From NCBI GenBank assembly GCA_903934135.1, contig CAIZMQ010000083.1, forward strand, positions 1 through 41,284: a stretch of DNA of 41,284 bases, read 5' to 3'. Positions 1,783 through 13,260 of the stretch are shown here, piece by piece. A program made the position numbers and the translations under genes. The notes below the pieces were generated by a model, which had not been told where the DNA came from, did no database searches, and was given only the letters and a program-made list of their open reading frames with translations. Source of the DNA: an uncultured Verrucomicrobiota bacterium (GTDB taxonomy: Bacteria; Verrucomicrobiota; Verrucomicrobiia; Chthoniobacterales; JACTMZ01). Positions within the stretch are counted from its first letter, which is position 1. Each line of letters begins with the position of its first letter.

Positions 1783-2166
1783 TCAGGCCGCGTCGTTCAT
1801 CATGGCTTTCATCTTCGTCTCGACGTCTTCGGCCACAGCGGCGAGGGCGGGGGAGGCGGAGAGGGCCGAGAGGAGTTTGGTCGGCAACGCGGTGGCGATC
1901 TTGGTTTGGCCGTCTTCCTCGTAGACCGAGATACGGCAGGGCAGGGCGATGTTCATGCCGATGTCTTCGGTCAGGACCTTCGAGGCCTGCTCCGGGTTGC
2001 AGACTTCGAGGATGTGGCAGGCGTGGGGCAGCGGGAAGCCTTTGGAGTTGAGCGTTTCCTGGAGGTCGTAGGCGTGGAGGACGCCGAAGCCGTGCTTGGC
2101 CACGGCGGCGCGCAGGTCTTCGACCGCGGCCGCGGGAGCTTTGTTCGTTTCGATGATGTAGCGCAT
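1783..2166 (-). CDS. DUF302 family protein
   Basis: The 127-residue protein matches the DUF302 pattern: 'HGFGVLHAYDLQETLNSKGF' followed by 'CHILEVCNPEQASKVL' and 'ALPCRISVYEEDG'. DUF302 proteins are small soluble alpha/beta proteins of unknown biochemistry. Cys50, Cys56 and Cys77 are visible, of which Cys56 and Cys77 lie in the conserved blocks. It has no signal peptide and is probably cytoplasmic. A good ribosome site (GAGGAA) lies about 9 bases upstream of the ATG, and only 11 bases separate it from the DsrE-like gene, so it is the last gene of the arsR-led operon. Its placement beside a sulfide:quinone-reductase-like enzyme, DsrC/TusE and DsrE suggests a part in sulfane-sulfur handling; that is inference from neighbours. 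Confidence 0.88.
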   Translation of the reverse strand: MRYIIETNKAPAAAVEDLRAAVAKHGFGVLHAYDLQETLNSKGFPLPHACHILEVCNPEQASKVLTEDIGMNIALPCRISVYEEDGQTKIATALPTKLLSALSASPALAAVAEDVETKMKAMMNDAA

Positions 2167-2177
2167 GGTCTGGTTCC

Positions 2178-2669
2178 TCAGGTGAAGATGATCTGTCCAC
2201 CAGCGGAGATTTCGTAGAATTCGCCGACGGTGAGGACTTTGTCCATTTGCGGGCAGAAGTCTGCCAAGTTGAGATGGAACATGTCGACCGTCGCCTTGCA
2301 GGCGTAGATTTTACCGCCGGCGTCATGGATCATTTCGATGAACTCGGGGATGGGCGGGATGTCGAGGGCTTCCATTTCCTTGTTCATCATGTGCGTGGCG
2401 AAGGCGGACATGCCGGGCAGCGCGCCGAGGATGGTCGGGAGCGGGAAGCCTTTGGCGTCGGGAACGCGCATGGCCGGGTTGCCGACCGTCGCGATCTTGA
2501 TGCTGCCCATGTATTTTTTCAGGATGGCATAGAGGCCGAAGAAGGTGAAAAAGAGGTTGGCCTCGATGCCTTCCATGCGGGCGCCGTTGCCCATGATGAG
2601 ACCCGGATAGATCCCGTCGAGGGAACCTTTGGAGACGATGATGGAGACTTTTTTGATTTTGTCGGACAT
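2178..2669 (-). CDS. DsrE/DsrF-like (DsrE2-type) sulfur-relay protein
   Basis: The 163-residue protein has the DsrE-like Rossmann-type start (KVSIIVSKGSLDGIYPGLIM) and the family's conserved late segment 'GGKIYACKATVDMFHL' with Cys124, the probable persulfide-carrying cysteine. The middle part is hydrophobic and Met/Pro-rich (residues 36-95, 'FFTFFGLYAIL', 'PTILGALPGMSAFATHMM'), as in membrane-associated DsrE2 homologues. DsrE-type proteins pass sulfane sulfur between carriers such as TusA and DsrC/TusE. Here it is 15 bases downstream of the DsrC/TusE gene in the same operon, which fits that role. A second cysteine, Cys139, is present. I see no TusA or rhodanese gene in the window that would complete the usual relay. 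Confidence 0.9.
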   Translation of the reverse strand: MSDKIKKVSIIVSKGSLDGIYPGLIMGNGARMEGIEANLFFTFFGLYAILKKYMGSIKIATVGNPAMRVPDAKGFPLPTILGALPGMSAFATHMMNKEMEALDIPPIPEFIEMIHDAGGKIYACKATVDMFHLNLADFCPQMDKVLTVGEFYEISAGGQIIFT

Positions 2670-2684
2670 GGTGATTTTCTCGGG

Positions 2685-2999
2685 TTAAACGCAGCTCACG
2701 GGTTTCGGGTAACCGCTGATTCTGGCTGCTTTCTTGATCGGGCCGTCGGGGAAGAGGGCGTAGAGGTCTTTGGTCGGGATGTTGCCGACTTTGTTCAGGC
2801 GGCGCATGCCGGGGACGACGCTGCGCTCTTTGAAGTCCGCGTCGATGAAATCAAGCACCCTCCAGTGCCCGTCGGTCAAGGTGATGCCTTCCTCCGCGGC
2901 GAGCGCGGCGGCGACATCTTTGTTCCATTGGCTGCGATTGACAAGGTAGCCCTCGTCGTCGGTGTCTACGGGCGTGCCCGCGAGGATTTTGGTTGGCAT
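2685..2999 (-). CDS. tusE: DsrC/TusE family sulfur carrier protein
   Basis: The 104-residue protein shows the whole DsrC/TusE pattern, including 'DDEGYLVNRSQWNKDVAAAL', 'LTDGHWRVLDFI', 'ALFPDGP' and the C-terminal arm ending KPVSCV. The penultimate residue Cys103 is the invariant CysA that carries persulfide sulfur. The CysB position eleven residues earlier is Ala92, so the protein is of the one-cysteine (TusE or DsrC-like) type rather than the two-cysteine DsrC that forms a trisulfide with dissimilatory sulfite reductase. It is therefore more likely a sulfur-trafficking or sensing carrier than a sulfite-reductase partner. It follows the SQR-like gene after a 150-base gap filled by a palindromic repeat. 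The tusE symbol is used loosely for this class. Confidence 0.92.
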   Translation of the reverse strand: MPTKILAGTPVDTDDEGYLVNRSQWNKDVAAALAAEEGITLTDGHWRVLDFIDADFKERSVVPGMRRLNKVGNIPTKDLYALFPDGPIKKAARISGYPKPVSCV

Positions 3000-3050: not shown

Positions 3051-3134
3051 TAACCACGGATTACACGGATGGCACGGATGAGTTCAGAAAAGTGCAGCAG
3101 CCGATTCTGTGTTTATCAGTGTCATCAGTGGTTA
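3051..3134. repeat. Palindromic interspersed repeat (TAACCAC...GTGGTTA type)
   Basis: The two ends form an imperfect inverted repeat: TAACCACGGATTACACGGAT at 3051-3070 and the complement of ATCAGTGTCATCAGTGGTTA at 3115-3134, differing at a few positions. Read on the minus strand it encodes the tell-tale 'TTDDTDKHR' and 'NSSVPSV' peptides. This element type ('ATCCGTGT...ATCCGTGGTTA') is dispersed as a small non-coding repeat in many bacterial genomes, notably planctomycetes and verrucomicrobia. Here it sits between two genes of one operon and would fold into a long hairpin in the transcript. Confidence 0.75.
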
Positions 3135-3149
3135 AAATCTTGGGATCGT

Positions 3150-4409
3150 TCAAGCGGCGGCTTTGAGTTCCTTGGGCGGGATGTTTTTGCCGCGGAGGGA
3201 CATTTTGTGTCCGACCAACGGGATGGGCCAACCGGGCAGGAGGATGTTCCAATAGACCCAGCGGAAGGCCATTTTGCCGAGGTGGTTGAGGCGGGATTCG
3301 GCGAGGAGGCGCATCGGGCCGAGGGCGGGGAGGGGGAACGTGCCGGTGACCGGTTCTTGGTCGTAGTTGAAATCAAGCAGGAACGCTTTGCCGTGGCCGG
3401 ATTCGATGAAGCAGTTGGCGTGGCCGTCGAAGCGGCTGCGGAGGGGTTGGCCGGCGATGAAGTGAAGGATGTTCTCCGTGAGGACCTCGGCTTCAAAGTG
3501 CGCGACGGATCCGGCTTTGGAGGTTGGGCAGTCGGTGGCGTCGCCGATGACGAAGATGTTGGCGTGGGCCTTGCATTGCAGGGTGTGCTTGTCGGTCGGG
3601 ACGTAGTTGAGTTCGTCGCCGAGGCCGGAGCGGTCGATCATTTCCGCGCCCATGTTCGGTGGGACGGTGACCAGCAAGTCGTAGGGGACCTCTTTTTCGT
3701 CCCAGGAGACGATGGCTTTCTTTTCGGCGTCGACGCGGGCGATGGCGAAATCATGGACCACAGAAATACGTTTTTCGTCGAGTAGGCGGGTGAGGATGCC
3801 GGAGGCGACGGGTTTGGTGAAGGCCCCGGACATCGGGGTGACGTAGACGATTTCCGTTTTCTCGCGCAGGCCCTTTTCCTGCAGCCAGGCGTCGGCGAGG
3901 AAGGTGAACTCGAGCGGGGCCACGGGGCACTTGATCGGCATTTCACAGATGTGGACGACGAGGCGCCCGCCTTGCCAGGACTTCAAGCGCTCGGTCAGCG
4001 CCTTGGCGCCTTCAAAGGTATAAAACTCGTGCACGTTCTTGCGCCAGTCGCCGTTGACCATGCCTTCGACTTGTTCGGGTGCGGGATGGACGCCGGTGGC
4101 GATGATCAGGACGTCGTAGGGGATCTCGGTGCCGTCCGGCAAAAAGACGCGGTTGGCCGCCGCGTCAACGCGGTCGACGTCGGCCTCGCGGTAATCGATC
4201 CCGCGCGGGACAGTGCGGGTCATCGGTCGACGGACATCGTTCTCCGTGTAGATGCCGAAGGGCATGAAGAGATAACCCGGTTGGTAGTAATGGTCGGGGG
4301 CGCGATCGACGAGGGCGATGGTCCATTCGCCTTTGGGGAGTTTGTTCCGCAGGGTGCTGGCCATGATGGTGCCGGCCGTGCCTGCGCCGAGGATAAGGAG
4401 AGTTTTCAT
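3150..4409 (-). CDS. FAD-dependent sulfide:quinone oxidoreductase-like flavoprotein
   Basis: The 419-residue protein is a two-dinucleotide-binding-domain flavoprotein. It has GAGTAG at residues 8-13 for FAD, 'LIIATGVHP' near 101-109 and 'IFVIGDATDCPTSKAG' at 285-300 for the second FAD contact. Cys155 and Cys161 (CEMPIKCPVAP) and Cys294 lie where sulfide:quinone reductases keep redox cysteines, and the C-terminus (about 375-405) is hydrophobic and aromatic as in membrane-attached SQRs. The expected reaction is oxidation of sulfide or a related sulfane to sulfane sulfur, with electrons to quinone. Its ATG overlaps the arsR stop by four bases (4406-4409), so the two are translationally coupled. 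It belongs to the SQR-like group; exact substrate is not shown by the sequence. Confidence 0.88.
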   Translation of the reverse strand: MKTLLILGAGTAGTIMASTLRNKLPKGEWTIALVDRAPDHYYQPGYLFMPFGIYTENDVRRPMTRTVPRGIDYREADVDRVDAAANRVFLPDGTEIPYDVLIIATGVHPAPEQVEGMVNGDWRKNVHEFYTFEGAKALTERLKSWQGGRLVVHICEMPIKCPVAPLEFTFLADAWLQEKGLREKTEIVYVTPMSGAFTKPVASGILTRLLDEKRISVVHDFAIARVDAEKKAIVSWDEKEVPYDLLVTVPPNMGAEMIDRSGLGDELNYVPTDKHTLQCKAHANIFVIGDATDCPTSKAGSVAHFEAEVLTENILHFIAGQPLRSRFDGHANCFIESGHGKAFLLDFNYDQEPVTGTFPLPALGPMRLLAESRLNHLGKMAFRWVYWNILLPGWPIPLVGHKMSLRGKNIPPKELKAAA

Positions 4410-4711
4410 GATTTGCCGTTGCTTTGTTTGGCGGTTCCGCAGGCGAGATCGCAGAGGCCGAAAATGAGCGGTTCGCTGATAGCATAATGCACCGAGGTGC
4501 CTTCGCGATGGGGACTTACCAGACCGGCCTCGCGGAGAACGCGGAGGTGTTTCGAGGTGTTGGCCTGCTTAAGGCGGCATTTGCGGTGGATTTCGCCGAC
4601 GCGGAGCGGCCCTTGGCGAAGGCTTTGCAGGATACGCAAGCGGGCCGGATCTGCGAGCTTGGCAAAAAGATTGGCCATGCGGGTCAACTGGCGTTGGTCG
4701 ACTTTGCTCAT
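4406..4711 (-). CDS. ArsR-family winged-helix repressor of the sulfur module
   Basis: A 101-residue ArsR/SmtB-type regulator: 'KLADPARLRILQSL' (helix 2), the recognition region 'KQANTSKHLRVLREAGLV' and the wing 'HREGTSVHYAIS'. Cysteines are Cys45 (just before the recognition helix) and Cys87/Cys91 near the C-terminus (CDLAC). The classical metal motif ELCVCDL is absent. Placement of Cys45 with C-terminal cysteines resembles the thiol-based persulfide sensors of the BigR/SqrR group, so sensing of sulfane sulfur by disulfide or tetrasulfide formation is a reasonable inference, not proven. It is the first gene of the minus-strand sulfur operon and divergent from the RND adaptor, with a fitting inverted repeat at 4733-4748 between them. 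The leader has AGAGAGAAG about 5 bases before the ATG. Confidence 0.9.
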   Translation of the reverse strand: MSKVDQRQLTRMANLFAKLADPARLRILQSLRQGPLRVGEIHRKCRLKQANTSKHLRVLREAGLVSPHREGTSVHYAISEPLIFGLCDLACGTAKQSNGKS

Positions 4712-4725
4712 AAGAACTTCTCTCT

Positions 4726-4748
4726 TTACTTTATTACCATTAAGTAAT
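4726..4748. promoter_or_regulatory. Probable ArsR operator in the divergent promoter region
   Basis: The 53-base gap between arsR and the RND adaptor is AT-rich against GC-rich surroundings. It contains ATTAC (4733-4737), six bases, GTAAT (4744-4748), and an overlapping TTACTT (4726-4731) / AAGTAA (4742-4747) inverted repeat. Short AT-rich dyads of this size are normal ArsR-family operators. A single site here could repress both directions. Confidence 0.55.
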
Positions 4749-4764
4749 ATATCAAGAACAAATC

Positions 4765-5796
4765 ATGATGAATGCGAAATTTTCCCGACTCACGTTGGTT
4801 GCCGTGGTGATTCTGGCCGGATGCGGCAAACACGAGGAGGACGGCGCGGGGCCCGCAGCTTCGAGCCCGGCGGTTCCGGTGGTGGTCGCGCCGGTGTCGG
4901 TGCAACCGCTGTGGGACGAGGAGGAAGTGGTGGGAAATGTCGAGGCGGCCCAGCGGGCGGTGTTGTCGGCCAAAGTGACGGGGGTGATCGACGCGGTGAA
5001 AGTCGCACCCGGCGCGAGGGTACAACGCGGGACAGCGCTGGCCACGATTGACGCGCGGGAAATCAAGGCGCGGCTCGATTCGGCGATGGCGGCCCAAGAG
5101 CAGGCGCAGAAAGATTTTGCGCGGATCGAGCGCCTGCTGCAGAGCGGGTCTTCCACGCGTCAGGAATTCGATGCGGCGACCACGCGCCTGCGCACGGCCG
5201 ACGCCTCGCTGGTCGAAGCGCGCACCATGTTGCAATACACCGAGATCACGGCGCCCTTTGACGGGGTGGTGACGCGGAAGTTGGTCGAAGTCGGCGACCT
5301 GGCCACGCCCGGCAAGCCATTGCTCGAGATGGAAAATTCCTCGCTGCTGCGCTTTGAGTGCGAGATTCCCGAGGCCTTGCTTGACCGCGTGAACATGGGC
5401 TCCGAGTTGCCGGTGCGCGTTGATGCGGCAGGAGCTGAGCTGACAGGAAAGATCTCGGAAATTGCCCCGTCGGCTTCGGTCGGCAGCCGCACATTTTTGG
5501 TGAAGCTGGACCTGCCGGCGGCTGAAAAGCTGCGTGCGGGCCAATTCGGGCGGGCTCGCGTCCCGGTGCGGGAGCGTCCGGCCCTGCTTGTGGCCGAAAG
5601 CGCGGTGGTGCGGCTCGGTCTGATTGAAAGCGTCTTTGTCGTCGAAGAGGGCAAAGCGCGGCTGCGGTTGGTCAAATCCGGACGTCAGATGAACGGGGAG
5701 ATCGAAATTTTGAGCGGTTTGTCCGGCGGTGAGTCCGTGGTGGTGCGCGATGCGCATCTTTTGACCGACGGCGTTTCCGTGGAGGCCACGCCATGA
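4765..5796 (+). CDS. RND efflux periplasmic adaptor (membrane fusion protein), lipoprotein
   Basis: The 343-residue protein starts with a lipoprotein signal (LAGC, Cys20 counted from the ATG at 4765; the next codon is also ATG). The adaptor core is clear: first half-motif '[28 protein letters not shown]' split around a helical hairpin (about 90-150, '[22 protein letters not shown]'), then '[30 protein letters not shown]', a beta-barrel and a membrane-proximal domain. It would connect the inner-membrane RND pump at 5793-9053 to an outer-membrane channel; no TolC-like gene is present here. It overlaps the permease start by four bases. Divergent from arsR, it is probably under the same repressor, hinting at export of sulfur-related or thiol-stress compounds. 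Confidence 0.93.
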
Positions 5797-8700
5797 CCGA
5801 GCCGGGCTTGAGCAAGGTGGAGAAGGTATCCGACGGCTTGGCCGGACGGATTGCGCGGATGTTTGTCGACAGCAAGTTGACGCCTTTGCTCATCGTGTCG
5901 TCCGTCTTGCTCGGTTTGGCGTCGGTCATTTTGCTCCCGCGGGAGGAAGAACCGCAGATCAAGGTGCCGATGATCGACGTGATGGTGTCGATGCCTGGGG
6001 CCAGCGCGCGCGAGGTGGCGGAGCGGGTGACGCGGCCGATGGAGCAGTTGCTCTGGGAAATCCCCGGGGTCGAATACGTCTACTCCACGTCGCGCCCGGC
6101 CGAGAGTCTGGTCATCGTGCGTTTCAAAGTCGGCTCCGATCTGGAGGCGAGTCTGGTCAAACTCAACCAGAAGCTGCAGACGAATTTCGACCGCATCCCG
6201 CACGGGGTGACGGCGCCGCTGATCAAGCCGCGGACCATCGATGATGTCCCCATTCTGGCCCTGACTTTGCATAGTGCGGGGCAGGATCCGATGGAATTGC
6301 GGCGGCTGGCGGCGGAGCTGCAGGATGCGGTGAAGCAGATTCCCTTGGTGGCGGAGACGCGTGTGATCGGCGGGTTGCGTCGGCAGATCCGTGTACTCCT
6401 CGATCCGGTGCGCCTGGCTTCCCGCGGGGTGACGCCCGCAGGCATCGTGCCGATGTTGCAGCAAAGCAACCGGCAGACGCGGGCGGGTGCGGTCACCTCG
6501 GAAAACCGCACGATTCTCATCGAGTCGGGCGGATTCATCACCAGCGCGGCCGAGGCCGGGCAGGTGGTGGTGGGGGTTTACGAGGGACGGCCGGTTTATT
6601 TGCGTGATGTGGCGGAGATTGTCGACGGACCTGAGGAACCGCGGTCCTACGTGTTTCAAGCCGAGCGGGGGCAGGGAATCGAGCCGGCGGTCACCTTGAG
6701 CGTGGCCAAACAGCCGGGGGCCAATGCGGTGGACGTGGTGCAGGCCGTGATGCGCAAGGTGGATGAGGTGCGCGGTCGTATTCTCCCCGGCGATGTGCGC
6801 GTCACCGTGACGCGTGACTACGGCGAGACGGCCTCGGAAAAATCCAACGAGCTGCTTTTCCACATGGCCATCGCGGTGGTCAGCGTGTCGTTGCTCGTCA
6901 TGTTCGTGCTCGGCTGGCGCGAGTCGATTGTCGTGGCCATAGCCATTCCGTCCACGCTGGCGCTGACCCTGCTGGTTTTTTACCTCTACGGATACACGCT
7001 GAATCGCATCACGCTCTTCGCGCTGATTTTTTCCATCGGCATTCTCGTCGATGACGCGATCGTGGTGGTGGAAAATGTGGTGCGTCACTACCGGATGCCG
7101 GGCAATCGGCTGCGCAACCTGAGCGAGGTCGCCATCGAGGCGGTGGCGGAGGTCGGGAATCCGACGATTCTGGCCACGCTGGCAGTCATCGCGGCCATTT
7201 TGCCGATGGCGTTTGTCAGCGGATTGATGGGGCCCTACATGCGACCTATCCCGATCGGCGCGAGCGCGGCCATGTTCTGGTCGCTGCTCATCGCATTCGT
7301 GGTCACGCCGTGGGCGGCGCGGCGCCTGCTGGCGGGTGAAGTGAAGCGTCACCACGGGGAGGGTGAAAAAGAGAGCAGATTCACCCTGCTCTACCGTCAG
7401 TGGATGGGCCACCTCATCCACGACCCGAAATGGCGCTGGGCTTTCCTGGCGGGCATCGTTGTTTTGCTGCTCGGGTCCTTCGCGCTGGTTCCGCTTGGTT
7501 TCGTTAAGGTGAAAATGCTGCCCTTCGACAACAAGAGCGAGTTTCAGGTCATCCTCAACATGCCGGAGGACAGTTCGCTGGAGCAGACCGCGGCGGTGGC
7601 GCGGGAGATGGCCGACTCTTTGTTGCCGGAGGCGGAAGTGCGCGATGTGCAGATTTACGCGGGTACGGCGTCGCCCTTCAATTTCAACGGCTTGGTGCGG
7701 CACTACTTTCTGCGCTCGGGGCCGTCGGTTGCCGATCTTCAGGTCAATCTGCTCTCGCGCCATGAACGCAAGGAGCAAAGCCACGACATTGCCAAGCGGG
7801 TGCGTCCGCGTTTGGCGGAAATTGCCAAGCGGCACAAGGCAAGGATTGCCGTGGCCGAGGTGCCGCCGGGTCCGCCGGTGCTGCAGACCATCGTGGCCGA
7901 GATATACGGTCCGGATGATGCTTCGCGACTCAAGCTGGCGACCGAGGTGAAGAAAATTTTCGAGGAGACGGCGGGGGTGGTCGATGTCGACTGGTATGTG
8001 GAGTCGGCTCAGCCTAAAGCGCGCTTTGTGGTCGACAAGGAGAAGGCGGCCCTCAACGGGATCAGTGCGGACACCATTGCGCGCACGCTGGCTATCGCCA
8101 CCCGCGGTCAGTCGGTCGATCTGATCCACCAACCGCGGGAAAAAGAGGACGTGAATATTTTTCTCGAATTGCCCAACCGTGAGAAGTCATCGCCGGAGCA
8201 GTTGCTCTCGTTGCGCGTGCGTTCGGGCGACGCCAATGCGTTGCCGGAGCCGGGATCCGTCGGGACGGCGCCGCTTGTGCCCTTGCGTGAGTTGGTGCGG
8301 GTCGACCGGACGACCGAGGACAAAAGCATTTACCACAAGAATCTCATGCCGGCGGTCTATGTGATGGCCGATGTGGCGGGTGAGGTGGAGAGTCCGGTCT
8401 ACGCGATCCTTGAAATGAATGATCGTCTGGCCGAGTTGAATGCCTCCGAGTTCGGCGGCGCCGCGGGTGGGGTGGAGATTTACAATGCCGCGATGCCCTT
8501 CACGGACTTTCAACCTGCGATCAAGTGGGATGGCGAGTGGCATATCACGATCGAAGTGTTCCGCGACTTGACCTTGGCCTTTGCCGCGGTGCTGGTGCTG
8601 ATTTACCTGCTGATGGTCGGCTGGTTCGGTTCGTTCGTCACGCCGCTGGTCGTGATGGCGGCGATTCCGTTCTCGCTCGTCGGCATTCTGCCGGCCCATG

Positions 8701-9053
8701 GACTGATGGACGCATTTTTCAGCGCACCTTCGATGATCGGGTTCATGGCCGGCGCCGGCATCGTGGTGCGAAACTCGATCATCCTGGTTGATTTCATCCA
8801 GTTGCGCCGGGCTCAAGGCATGCCGCTCGACCAGGCGGTGATCGATGCGGGCGCTGTGCGGTTCCGTCCGATGCTGCTCACCGCCATGGCCGTGGTGGTG
8901 GGTGCAGGGGTGATTTTGTTCGACCCGATTTTTCAGGGTTTGGCCATCTCGTTGATGGCCGGGGAGGTGGCTTCCTTGTTTCTCAGCCGGATGGCGGTGC
9001 CGGTGCTCTTTTACCTGACCAACCGCAGCGAAACCTCCGGCGAAGCTGTTTGA
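5793..9053 (+). CDS. RND-family inner-membrane efflux permease
   Basis: This 1086-residue permease has the AcrB/MexB-type plan: a first transmembrane helix (about 28-48, '[20 protein letters not shown]'), a large periplasmic porter domain, six helices, a second porter domain and five or six more helices. The proton-relay acidic pair in helix 4 is present in '[16 protein letters not shown]'. '[21 protein letters not shown]' and '[19 protein letters not shown]' are conserved N-terminal motifs. The start ATG overlaps the adaptor stop (ATGA). Similar RND pumps are often found beside ArsR, SQR-like, DsrE and DUF302 genes, so this is probably the transport arm of the sulfur module. The substrate cannot be read from the sequence. 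No partner outer-membrane factor is encoded nearby. Confidence 0.95.
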
Positions 9054-12430: not shown

Positions 12431-13260
12431 TGCAGCCGTTCACCACCACGGCAAAAAGCCCGATCGCCGTTTTTGATTCCGGGATCGGCGGGCTGACGGT
12501 GGTCAGCGCCCTGCGTCGCGAATTGCCCGGCGAAGATATTATCTATCTTGGTGACACCGCACGCGTGCCTTACGGCGGAAAATCGCGCACCACAATCGAA
12601 CGTTACAGCGAGGAAATCGCTGCCCTGCTCGTCGGGGAGGGTGCGAAAATGGTGGTGGTCGCCTGCAACACGGCTTCGGCCCTGGGCCTGCCGCGACTCC
12701 GGGAAGTGCTGAGTGTTCCGGTCGAGGGAGTGATCGAACCCGGGGTGGAGGCTGCCTTGGCGGCCACCGTGACCGGCCACGTTGCCGTGCTCGGCACGAA
12801 GGCCACGATCGGCAGCGGGGCCTACGCCCATGCCTTGCAGGCGGCCCGGCCCGGCATTCGTGTCACCAGCTTGGCTTGTCCGCTGCTTGTCCCCCTGGTC
12901 GAGGAGGGACTTTTCGAGGACGCAGTGACCGATGCCGTCCTCCACCGTTATATGGCCGCACTTCGGGCGGGTGACGCCGACGCGCTGGTCATGGGGTGCA
13001 CGCATTACCCCTTGCTGGCCACCGCCCTGGCGCGGGCGGCGGGTCCGGCCATCACCCTGGTGGATTCCGCCGCGAACTGCGCCCGCACCGTGGCGCGCCG
13101 TCTCGACCAACTCGGTTTGCGTGCTCCCTCCGGCCGCGTGGGCTCGCTGGACCTTTCTTTCACTGATACTCCGGACAACTTCCTGCAGGTGGTGCTCCTT
13201 GCCCTGGGCCTCGAGGCCGGGGAGGCGAGGGTCCGTCAGGTGCCGCCGCTCGGTCAATAA
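12430..13260 (+). CDS. murI: Glutamate racemase
   Basis: Makes D-glutamate for peptidoglycan. The ATG at 12430 shares its A with the lptD stop codon, and the frame gives 276 residues, normal for MurI. Visible motifs are 'IAVFDSGIGGLTVV' (catalytic-site Asp/Ser), 'IIYLGDTARVPYGGKS', 'MVVVACNTASA' with the first catalytic Cys, and 'ALVMGCTHYPLL' with the second catalytic Cys and His. The final residues run into a convergent minus-strand gene, overlapping its stop by seven bases (13254-13260). Longer upstream starts would run into lptD and lack homology. Confidence 0.96.
   Translation: MQPFTTTAKSPIAVFDSGIGGLTVVSALRRELPGEDIIYLGDTARVPYGGKSRTTIERYSEEIAALLVGEGAKMVVVACNTASALGLPRLREVLSVPVEGVIEPGVEAALAATVTGHVAVLGTKATIGSGAYAHALQAARPGIRVTSLACPLLVPLVEEGLFEDAVTDAVLHRYMAALRAGDADALVMGCTHYPLLATALARAAGPAITLVDSAANCARTVARRLDQLGLRAPSGRVGSLDLSFTDTPDNFLQVVLLALGLEAGEARVRQVPPLGQ

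Follow-up and report, generated by a model that had tools for sequence, protein, structure and literature searches.

Metal-sensing repressors of the ArsR family, such as SmtB, CzrA, CadC, and CmtR, use alpha3 CVC, alpha5 His/Asp, or alpha4 Cys ligands. A different set of ArsR proteins senses persulfides and, in two surveys (PMC10509353, PMC12423496), is defined by a pair of cysteines divided between alpha2 and alpha5. This set includes BigR, SqrR, HlyU, SoxR, sHdrR, and YgaV (SSN cluster 4 of PMC10509353), which resemble the ArsR described below in fold and in the company of SQR, rhodanese/YgaP, BLH-MBL, or TauE genes and, presumably, in being released from the operator by sulfane sulfur. A link between sulfane-sulfur-responsive ArsR regulators and RND pumps, TauE exporters, and rhodaneses is not new, being already in print in the accessible text of PMC12423496. 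The regulators in that text are related to sHdrR and marked by the alpha2/alpha5 pair, whereas the clade considered here has an alpha5 C-x3-C motif, and the same text contains no mention that we could find of such a clade or of the operator reported below. RexT of Nostoc, as described in the available part of PMC8960804, is likewise an ArsR-family thiol switch, but has vicinal Cys40-Cys41 in alpha3, senses H2O2, and controls thioredoxin. Finally, the atypical As(III) ArsRs (SSN cluster 5 of PMC10509353) share the use of alpha5 cysteines, but they have three alpha5 ligands and arsenic neighbors in place of two cysteines and sulfur neighbors. In a literature search that covered largely open-access papers, no account of a sulfur-linked clade with an alpha5 C-x3-C motif came to light.

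The window analyzed here is a stretch of 41,284 nucleotides, contig C83 in a 2.27 Mb assembly of an uncultured Verrucomicrobiota bacterium. We estimate at roughly 60% the probability that the ArsR encoded near its start is an autoregulated sulfane-sulfur repressor from a separate ArsR clade, which would use an alpha5 C-x3-C motif as its sensor and control both an SQR arm and an RND pump. The features of the locus, in order of position, are as follows.

1783-2166, minus strand: DUF302 protein (PF03625).
2178-2669, minus strand: DsrE2-like sulfur carrier (PF13686; NF047629 112.8, below the cut-off of 210).
2685-2999, minus strand: DsrC/TusE-like sulfur carrier with one C-terminal Cys (PF04358; TIGR03342 88.2 bits, cut-off 53.5).
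3150-4409, minus strand: type III sulfide:quinone reductase (SQR)-like flavoprotein (NF049943 624 bits, cut-off 525).
4406-4711, minus strand: arsR, predicted 101-aa ArsR-family repressor (ORF call).
4439-4441, minus strand: Cys91 codon.
4439-4453, minus strand: stretch from the Cys87 codon to the Cys91 codon, encoding the conserved C-x3-C with which alpha5 ends.
4451-4453, minus strand: Cys87 codon.
4577-4579, minus strand: Cys45 codon, after alpha3.
4728-4755, minus strand: sigma-70-like arsR promoter TTGATA-16-TAAAGT (consensus match only; one found against 0.2 expected in shuffles).
4733-4748, no strand: putative operator ATTAC-N6-GTAAT, ATTACcattaaGTAAT, with no mismatches, in the arsR-mfp gap.
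4765-5796, plus strand: RND periplasmic adaptor, MFP (TIGR01730 219 bits, cut-off 94.9).
5793-9053, plus strand: RND permease of the subfamily linked to this ArsR clade (PF00873).

The ATG of the SQR gene overlaps the arsR stop codon (ATGA), and the minus-strand order after arsR is SQR, dsrC-like, dsrE2-like, and DUF302, with the MFP and RND permease genes diverging on the plus strand beyond a gap of 53 bp. The original prediction, made from the letters of the window, had called this the only intergenic gap, which is incorrect because 150 nt also separate the SQR gene (ending at 3150) from the dsrC-like gene (starting at 2999). A REP-like palindrome occupies positions 3051-3134 of that second gap, with 20-nt arms that are 85% complementary and 44 nt apart. 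It is matched in nine of 11 genomes of the genus, with 17 matches in G010, and its presence between the SQR and dsrC-like genes varies (present in G000, G001, and G005; absent from G002 and G006). As a separate observation, the model passed by the SQR (NF049943) is that of a selenoprotein subtype, and the window protein has an apparent Cys at HxxC where the family has Sec. Selenocysteine was considered for this protein and rejected, the frame being free of internal stops and HANC fitting, by eye, the HxxU site with Cys for Sec; an HxxU site is listed for the selenoprotein SQR family in the available part of PMC13188914.

The window ArsR passes PF01022 (54.6 bits, cut-off 22) and the general NCBIfam ArsR model NF033788 (82.7, cut-off 55), the only NCBIfam model that it clears. 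More specific matching models fall below their cut-offs, which are quoted for the window member only, and include the BigR model NF040642 (45.8 bits against 155) and, among the nearer ones, CmtR (48.6 against 150). A fold model with a mean pLDDT of 84.5 has ArsR folds as its top structural matches, BigR (3pqj) and SqrR (6o8o) giving Z 13.1 each. Helices in the model span residues 6-19, 22-31, 38-44, 49-61, and 82-91, placing Cys45 just past alpha3, Cys87 within alpha5, and Cys91 at the alpha5 end. The codons for all three of these cysteines, which the original prediction had named, are present at the positions listed above, and its remark that an ELCVCDL-type metal site is missing also holds: alpha3 reads VGEIHRK without CVC, alpha4 (QANTSKHLRVLRE) has no Cys, and alpha5 (LIFGLCDLAC) has no His. 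In addition, alpha3 (residues 38-44) has no Cys that could belong to a RexT-type pair, and the three-Cys As(III) site is absent, there being two Cys in alpha5 (82-91) and none beyond.

Alignment with BigR and SqrR had been proposed as a check on the thiol switch, and its result departs from expectation. The alpha2 sensor cysteine falls at Gln29 of the window ArsR, both in the sequence alignment with BigR and at the same offset in the structural register. The alpha5 cysteine coincides with Lys95 in the structural register, which was read from offsets because the structural comparison gives ranges only, and at Cys91 in a gapped sequence alignment. In the structural register, Cys87 and Cys91 lie one and two turns before the alpha5 cysteine of the BigR/SqrR group. 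The alpha2 partner cysteine is thus missing from the predicted protein under either alignment. Cys30, which is found in four of ten aligned genus copies (L038-L041), was tried as the BigR alpha2 cysteine and rejected, lying one residue off the BigR position. In a tree of 115 sequences, which has few columns (106) and places HlyU on a long branch, BigR, SqrR, HlyU, and a Paracoccus ArsR form a set of their own (support 99/90). Nearly all C-x3-C proteins belong to another set of 76 rows, with support of 90/94 (under the star threshold), four rows without the pair lying inside it and one with the pair outside. Pump linkage needs five changes on this tree.

The dyad lies within the spacer of the arsR promoter-like match, the single such match in that region. 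Scanning the window with at most two mismatches gives two dyad matches against 2.81 expected, the second being at 12602 with two mismatches, and so within the window the motif alone carries no weight; the case against chance comes from comparison. One perfect ATTAC-N6-GTAAT is present in the 2.27 Mb assembly against about 0.31 expected for independent bases, and the 11 genomes of the genus together contain 16 perfect sites against three for a reversed control pattern. A perfect site occupies the arsR-mfp gap in all ten genus genomes that keep the gene pair, and it is the single copy in the window genome and in five others. Moreover, the operator arms are invariant and the spacer is varied across nine distinct genus sites, and an alignment of ten gaps, including that of a Terrimicrobiaceae relative with one mismatch, has fixed arms with variable spacer and flanks; the core footprinted by alignment is ATATTAC-N6-GTAATA on the arsR strand. 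The motif as a product of chance was rejected on genus-wide site conservation, the reversed-control counts, and the fixed arms against the free spacer. Judged by this conservation, the dyad noticed between the divergent genes is a real operator and is placed to control both arms.

Six perfect sites are found elsewhere in the genus, and three of these precede rhodanese genes in three sister species. The site is 6 nt upstream of a 129-aa rhodanese in G001 and 5 nt upstream in G006, and in G009 it precedes by 39 nt a rhodanese gene whose product includes a YgaP-like membrane domain, close to DsbD-like and redoxin (AhpC/TSA) ORFs. G007 has two extra sites, one near a carbonic anhydrase gene and one inside a chitosanase-like ORF. 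A perfect site on contig C25 of G009 (L072:2413-2428) stands near the contig end with no identifiable adjoining gene. No operator site was found at the window genome's own copy of the 129-aa rhodanese gene, and regulon membership therefore varies between species.

Comparison of gene order across the genus separates the two arms. The arsR gene adjoins mfp and rnd in ten of the 11 genomes, and the nine other genomes that keep arsR have a permease orthologue at 87-99% identity to that of the window; Cys45 is invariant in the ten ArsR copies of the alignment (the G010 relic excepted). In G010, no pump orthologue was found anywhere in the assembly, estimated to be 89% complete (best RND 29% identity), there is no ATTAC-N6-GTAAT site, and arsR is a degraded relic. 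The relic lies between galE and ribD (L042:9406-9711), has lost all three cysteines, and is accompanied by no operator, MFP, or RND. G010 is also the only one of the 11 genomes with an MBL-rhodanese (E 1e-20 or better), which is located beside two C-x3-C ArsR paralogues. This single event suggests that the arsR-RND pair was replaced in G010 by an MBL-rhodanese with C-x3-C ArsR paralogues. The complete SQR-dsrC-dsrE2-DUF302 series follows arsR in five of the 11 genomes and DUF302 alone does so in G004; in G003, SQR-dsrC-dsrE2 is elsewhere, behind a different ArsR-like gene, and no SQR was found in the remaining four. The stop codon of the G003 ArsR-like gene (L043:8398-8775) overlaps the start of the relocated SQR gene, and its product, aligned by eye, carries a Cys where BigR has its alpha2 cysteine but none at the alpha5 position. 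On gene order, the pump is the constant partner of arsR and the SQR arm is movable. The proposal that one repressor controls both arms of the module is accordingly borne out in layout for the pump arm, across the genus genomes with the pair, but for the SQR arm in only the five genomes in which it follows arsR.

We then consider the wider clade in the phylum, for which 387 genomes were searched; together with earlier matches, this gave 103 ArsR loci whose neighbors were scored using seed proteins. A Pfam check of the seeds identified rhodaneses, mostly with a YgaP-like domain, MBL proteins, one of two with a rhodanese domain, and TauE; the PDO seeds are metallo-beta-lactamase proteins, so that weak matches to them may be other members of that superfamily. 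A score of 84 bits to the family profile divided these into 68 family loci, made up of all 45 phylum-search matches of at least 84 bits (G000 apart) and 23 loci from earlier searches, and 35 lower-scoring control loci, hand-picked in rank order from the lower phylum-search matches with some skipped. Because loci were divided by their resemblance to the query and controls were chosen by hand, phylogeny remains in the counts, the loci are not independent, and the sample is biased; with that reading, Cys87 and Cys91 are both present at 66 of the 68 family loci versus two of the 35 controls, a divergent rhodanese or MBL gene lies within 700 bp at 48 versus two, a divergent RND pump is found at 36 versus none, and one or other of these divergent genes at 59 versus two. 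Nine family loci have none of the seed genes. Of the 45 phylum-search loci taken alone, 44 have both cysteines, 43 a divergent rhodanese/MBL gene, and 25 a divergent RND pump.

Both alpha5 cysteines are present in all 36 RND-linked loci, and the linked pumps form one subfamily, being 61-68% identical to the window permease outside its closest relatives versus 42% for two comparators. Cys45 has a different distribution. It is found at ten of the 68 family loci (nine of the genus and L051) and, outside that set, in L017, and its position is occupied by Thr, Ser, Leu, or Val, never Cys, at the 27 loci that are linked to a pump and lie outside the genus. Since it is replaced there, Cys45 is unlikely to be a general sensor residue, and its candidacy as the main one was rejected. 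Nor was the operator upheld as a signature of the whole clade, as it occurs with at most one mismatch in 12 of 68 family upstream regions versus none of 35 controls, and with at most two in 20 versus four. Among 25 rhodanese-RND loci of the wider phylum, none reaches the operator at two mismatches or fewer.

Related ArsRs in four phyla adjoin rhodanese/YgaP, metallo-beta-lactamase-rhodanese, TauE, SQR, or RND genes. In the phylum of a Myxococcales relative, seven of 140 genomes have an ArsR match at E 1e-22 or better; ArsR is divergent from MFP-RND at L062 and L212 of this phylum, a rhodanese, TauE, MBL, or RND gene is nearby at L213, L216, and L217, and none of these was found in the short stretches of L214 and L215. 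Among plasmid records, 34 had an ArsR match and 55 a pump match, and the regions were inspected in six and five of these, respectively, two of the regions being unannotated. A Rubrobacter plasmid has an ArsR with LCDLVC followed by sulfur transferase, TauE, and MBL genes, and an Azospirillum copy, from an unannotated record, has LCRLVC. In Chroococcidiopsis (L204), ArsR is separated by a perfect operator from paired genes for a BLH-phosphatase and an MBL-rhodanese, which is the gene company of BigR. The plasmid of Pseudanabaena ABRG5-3 (L218) has two operator-like sites, at 3166-3181 and 3829-3844: one with one mismatch before arsR, and a perfect one before the genes of a YgaP-type membrane protein and of a flavoprotein, with a rhodanese-MFP-RND-DsbA group further downstream. 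In Pseudanabaena galeata, a NUDIX gene comes after ArsR and a TauE gene is found about 1.7 kb further on. Both Pseudanabaena ArsR copies have Ser at 91, and Cys29 is present at one of the 68 family loci (a cyanobacterium) and in three cyanobacterial plasmid copies, so that the cysteine set is not uniform. As for plasmid pump regions, that of Paracoccus has a full sulfur set and an ArsR of the classical cysteine type, that of Vibrio has a DUF2892 gene only, and no sulfur gene was found in that of Flammeovirga. Near the Kovacikia pump there are SQR-like, rhodanese, and ArsR matches, with no operator at one mismatch or fewer.

Because ArsRs of this clade adjoin rhodanese/YgaP, MBL-rhodanese, TauE, SQR, or RND genes, sulfane sulfur appears the likeliest signal. 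The same neighborhoods bear on the idea of a general redox or electrophile sensor resembling RexT, which would respond to H2O2 or disulfide stress and whose response would include the sulfur genes. Disulfide formation is conceivable for a C-x3-C pair, RexT does sense H2O2 through its vicinal pair (PMC8960804), and such a sensor would suit both the DsbA gene after the Pseudanabaena pump and the ORFs for DsbD-like and redoxin proteins close to the rhodanese site of G009. The alpha3 pair of RexT is, however, absent from the window ArsR, and rhodanese/YgaP, MBL-rhodanese, and TauE genes recur across the clade, where sulfur and RND seeds were scored; we therefore regard a general redox sensor as unlikely.

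An equally improbable alternative is a thiolate sensor of a metal or metalloid (Cd, Pb, Cu, or As), with Cys45, Cys87, and Cys91 as ligands, a pump that exports the metal, and sulfur genes that respond as a side effect. Membership of the ArsR family, the presence of three cysteines, and the placing of CmtR among the nearer models are all compatible with metal sensing, as is the resemblance of the adaptor to CzcB/NccB (TIGR00999 152.9 bits), albeit below the cut-off of 319.3. Nevertheless, the permease is far below the heavy-metal RND cut-off (264.6 against 701.45), the CVC motif, alpha4 Cys, and alpha5 His are lacking, alpha5 has two cysteines rather than three, and Cys45 is absent from every pump-linked locus outside the genus. 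The recurrent neighbors, again among the sulfur and RND seeds scored, are sulfur genes, and the only metal P-type ATPase encountered (L207) is accompanied by a CVC-type ArsR of its own. A classical BigR/SqrR switch in which Cys45 pairs with Cys87 or Cys91 is less probable still, for although the fold and operon company are similar and Cys91 meets the BigR alpha5 cysteine in the gapped alignment, Gln29 holds the alpha2 position, Lys95 holds the alpha5 position in the structural register, the NF040642 score and the tree set these proteins apart, and Cys45 is confined to the few loci given above.

Thus the original prediction of a BigR/SqrR-type thiol switch was probably right about the signal, for which the sulfur and RND neighbors and the extra operators at rhodanese genes make sulfane sulfur the best fit, and wrong about the cysteine geometry. 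For the preferred reading, a sulfane-sulfur repressor with an alpha5 C-x3-C sensor, we propose the following mechanism, in which the operator, divergent layout, conserved motif, and sulfur-gene company are drawn from sequence comparison. An ArsR dimer would bind ATATTAC-N6-GTAATA between arsR and mfp, within the arsR promoter, and so block transcription of arsR and the downstream SQR-dsrC-dsrE2-DUF302 genes as well as of the divergent MFP-RND pump. As sulfane sulfur (persulfides or polysulfides) rises and acts as the presumed inducer, Cys87 and Cys91, which are separated by a single turn of alpha5, would react to become persulfidated or bridged by sulfur. The modified dimer would then release the DNA, so that the direction of the response would be induction, both of sulfide oxidation with sulfur-carrier transfer and of RND export. 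SQR and the carriers would process sulfide and sulfane sulfur, and a sulfur compound would be the pump's export substrate. Counting against this reading are the missing alpha2 cysteine of BigR/SqrR, an operator that is not kept across the clade, and the SQR arm, which is not beside arsR in six of the 11 genus genomes. Moreover, the literature covered, some of it in partial text, contains no precedent for a sulfur bridge within one helix.

More tentatively, it is possible that the alpha5 C-x3-C clade represents a second class of sulfane-sulfur sensor with a construction of its own, in which a polysulfide staple that runs along a single helix, or spans the dimer, takes the place of the alpha2-alpha5 bridge. 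Such a class might have been joined repeatedly to one RND subfamily exporting sulfane-sulfur compounds, with an operator, ATATTACC-N4-GGTAATAT, that may be shared by some Verrucomicrobiota and Cyanobacteria.

These proposals can be tested directly through the operator, the cysteines, and the cases of natural loss. If the main reading is true, a different cysteine geometry can serve to read the same signal while the company of sulfur genes is kept, and an RND pump subfamily would be tied to sulfur stress. Sulfur regulons that are now labelled "metalloregulator" would, in addition, become recognizable to genome annotators.
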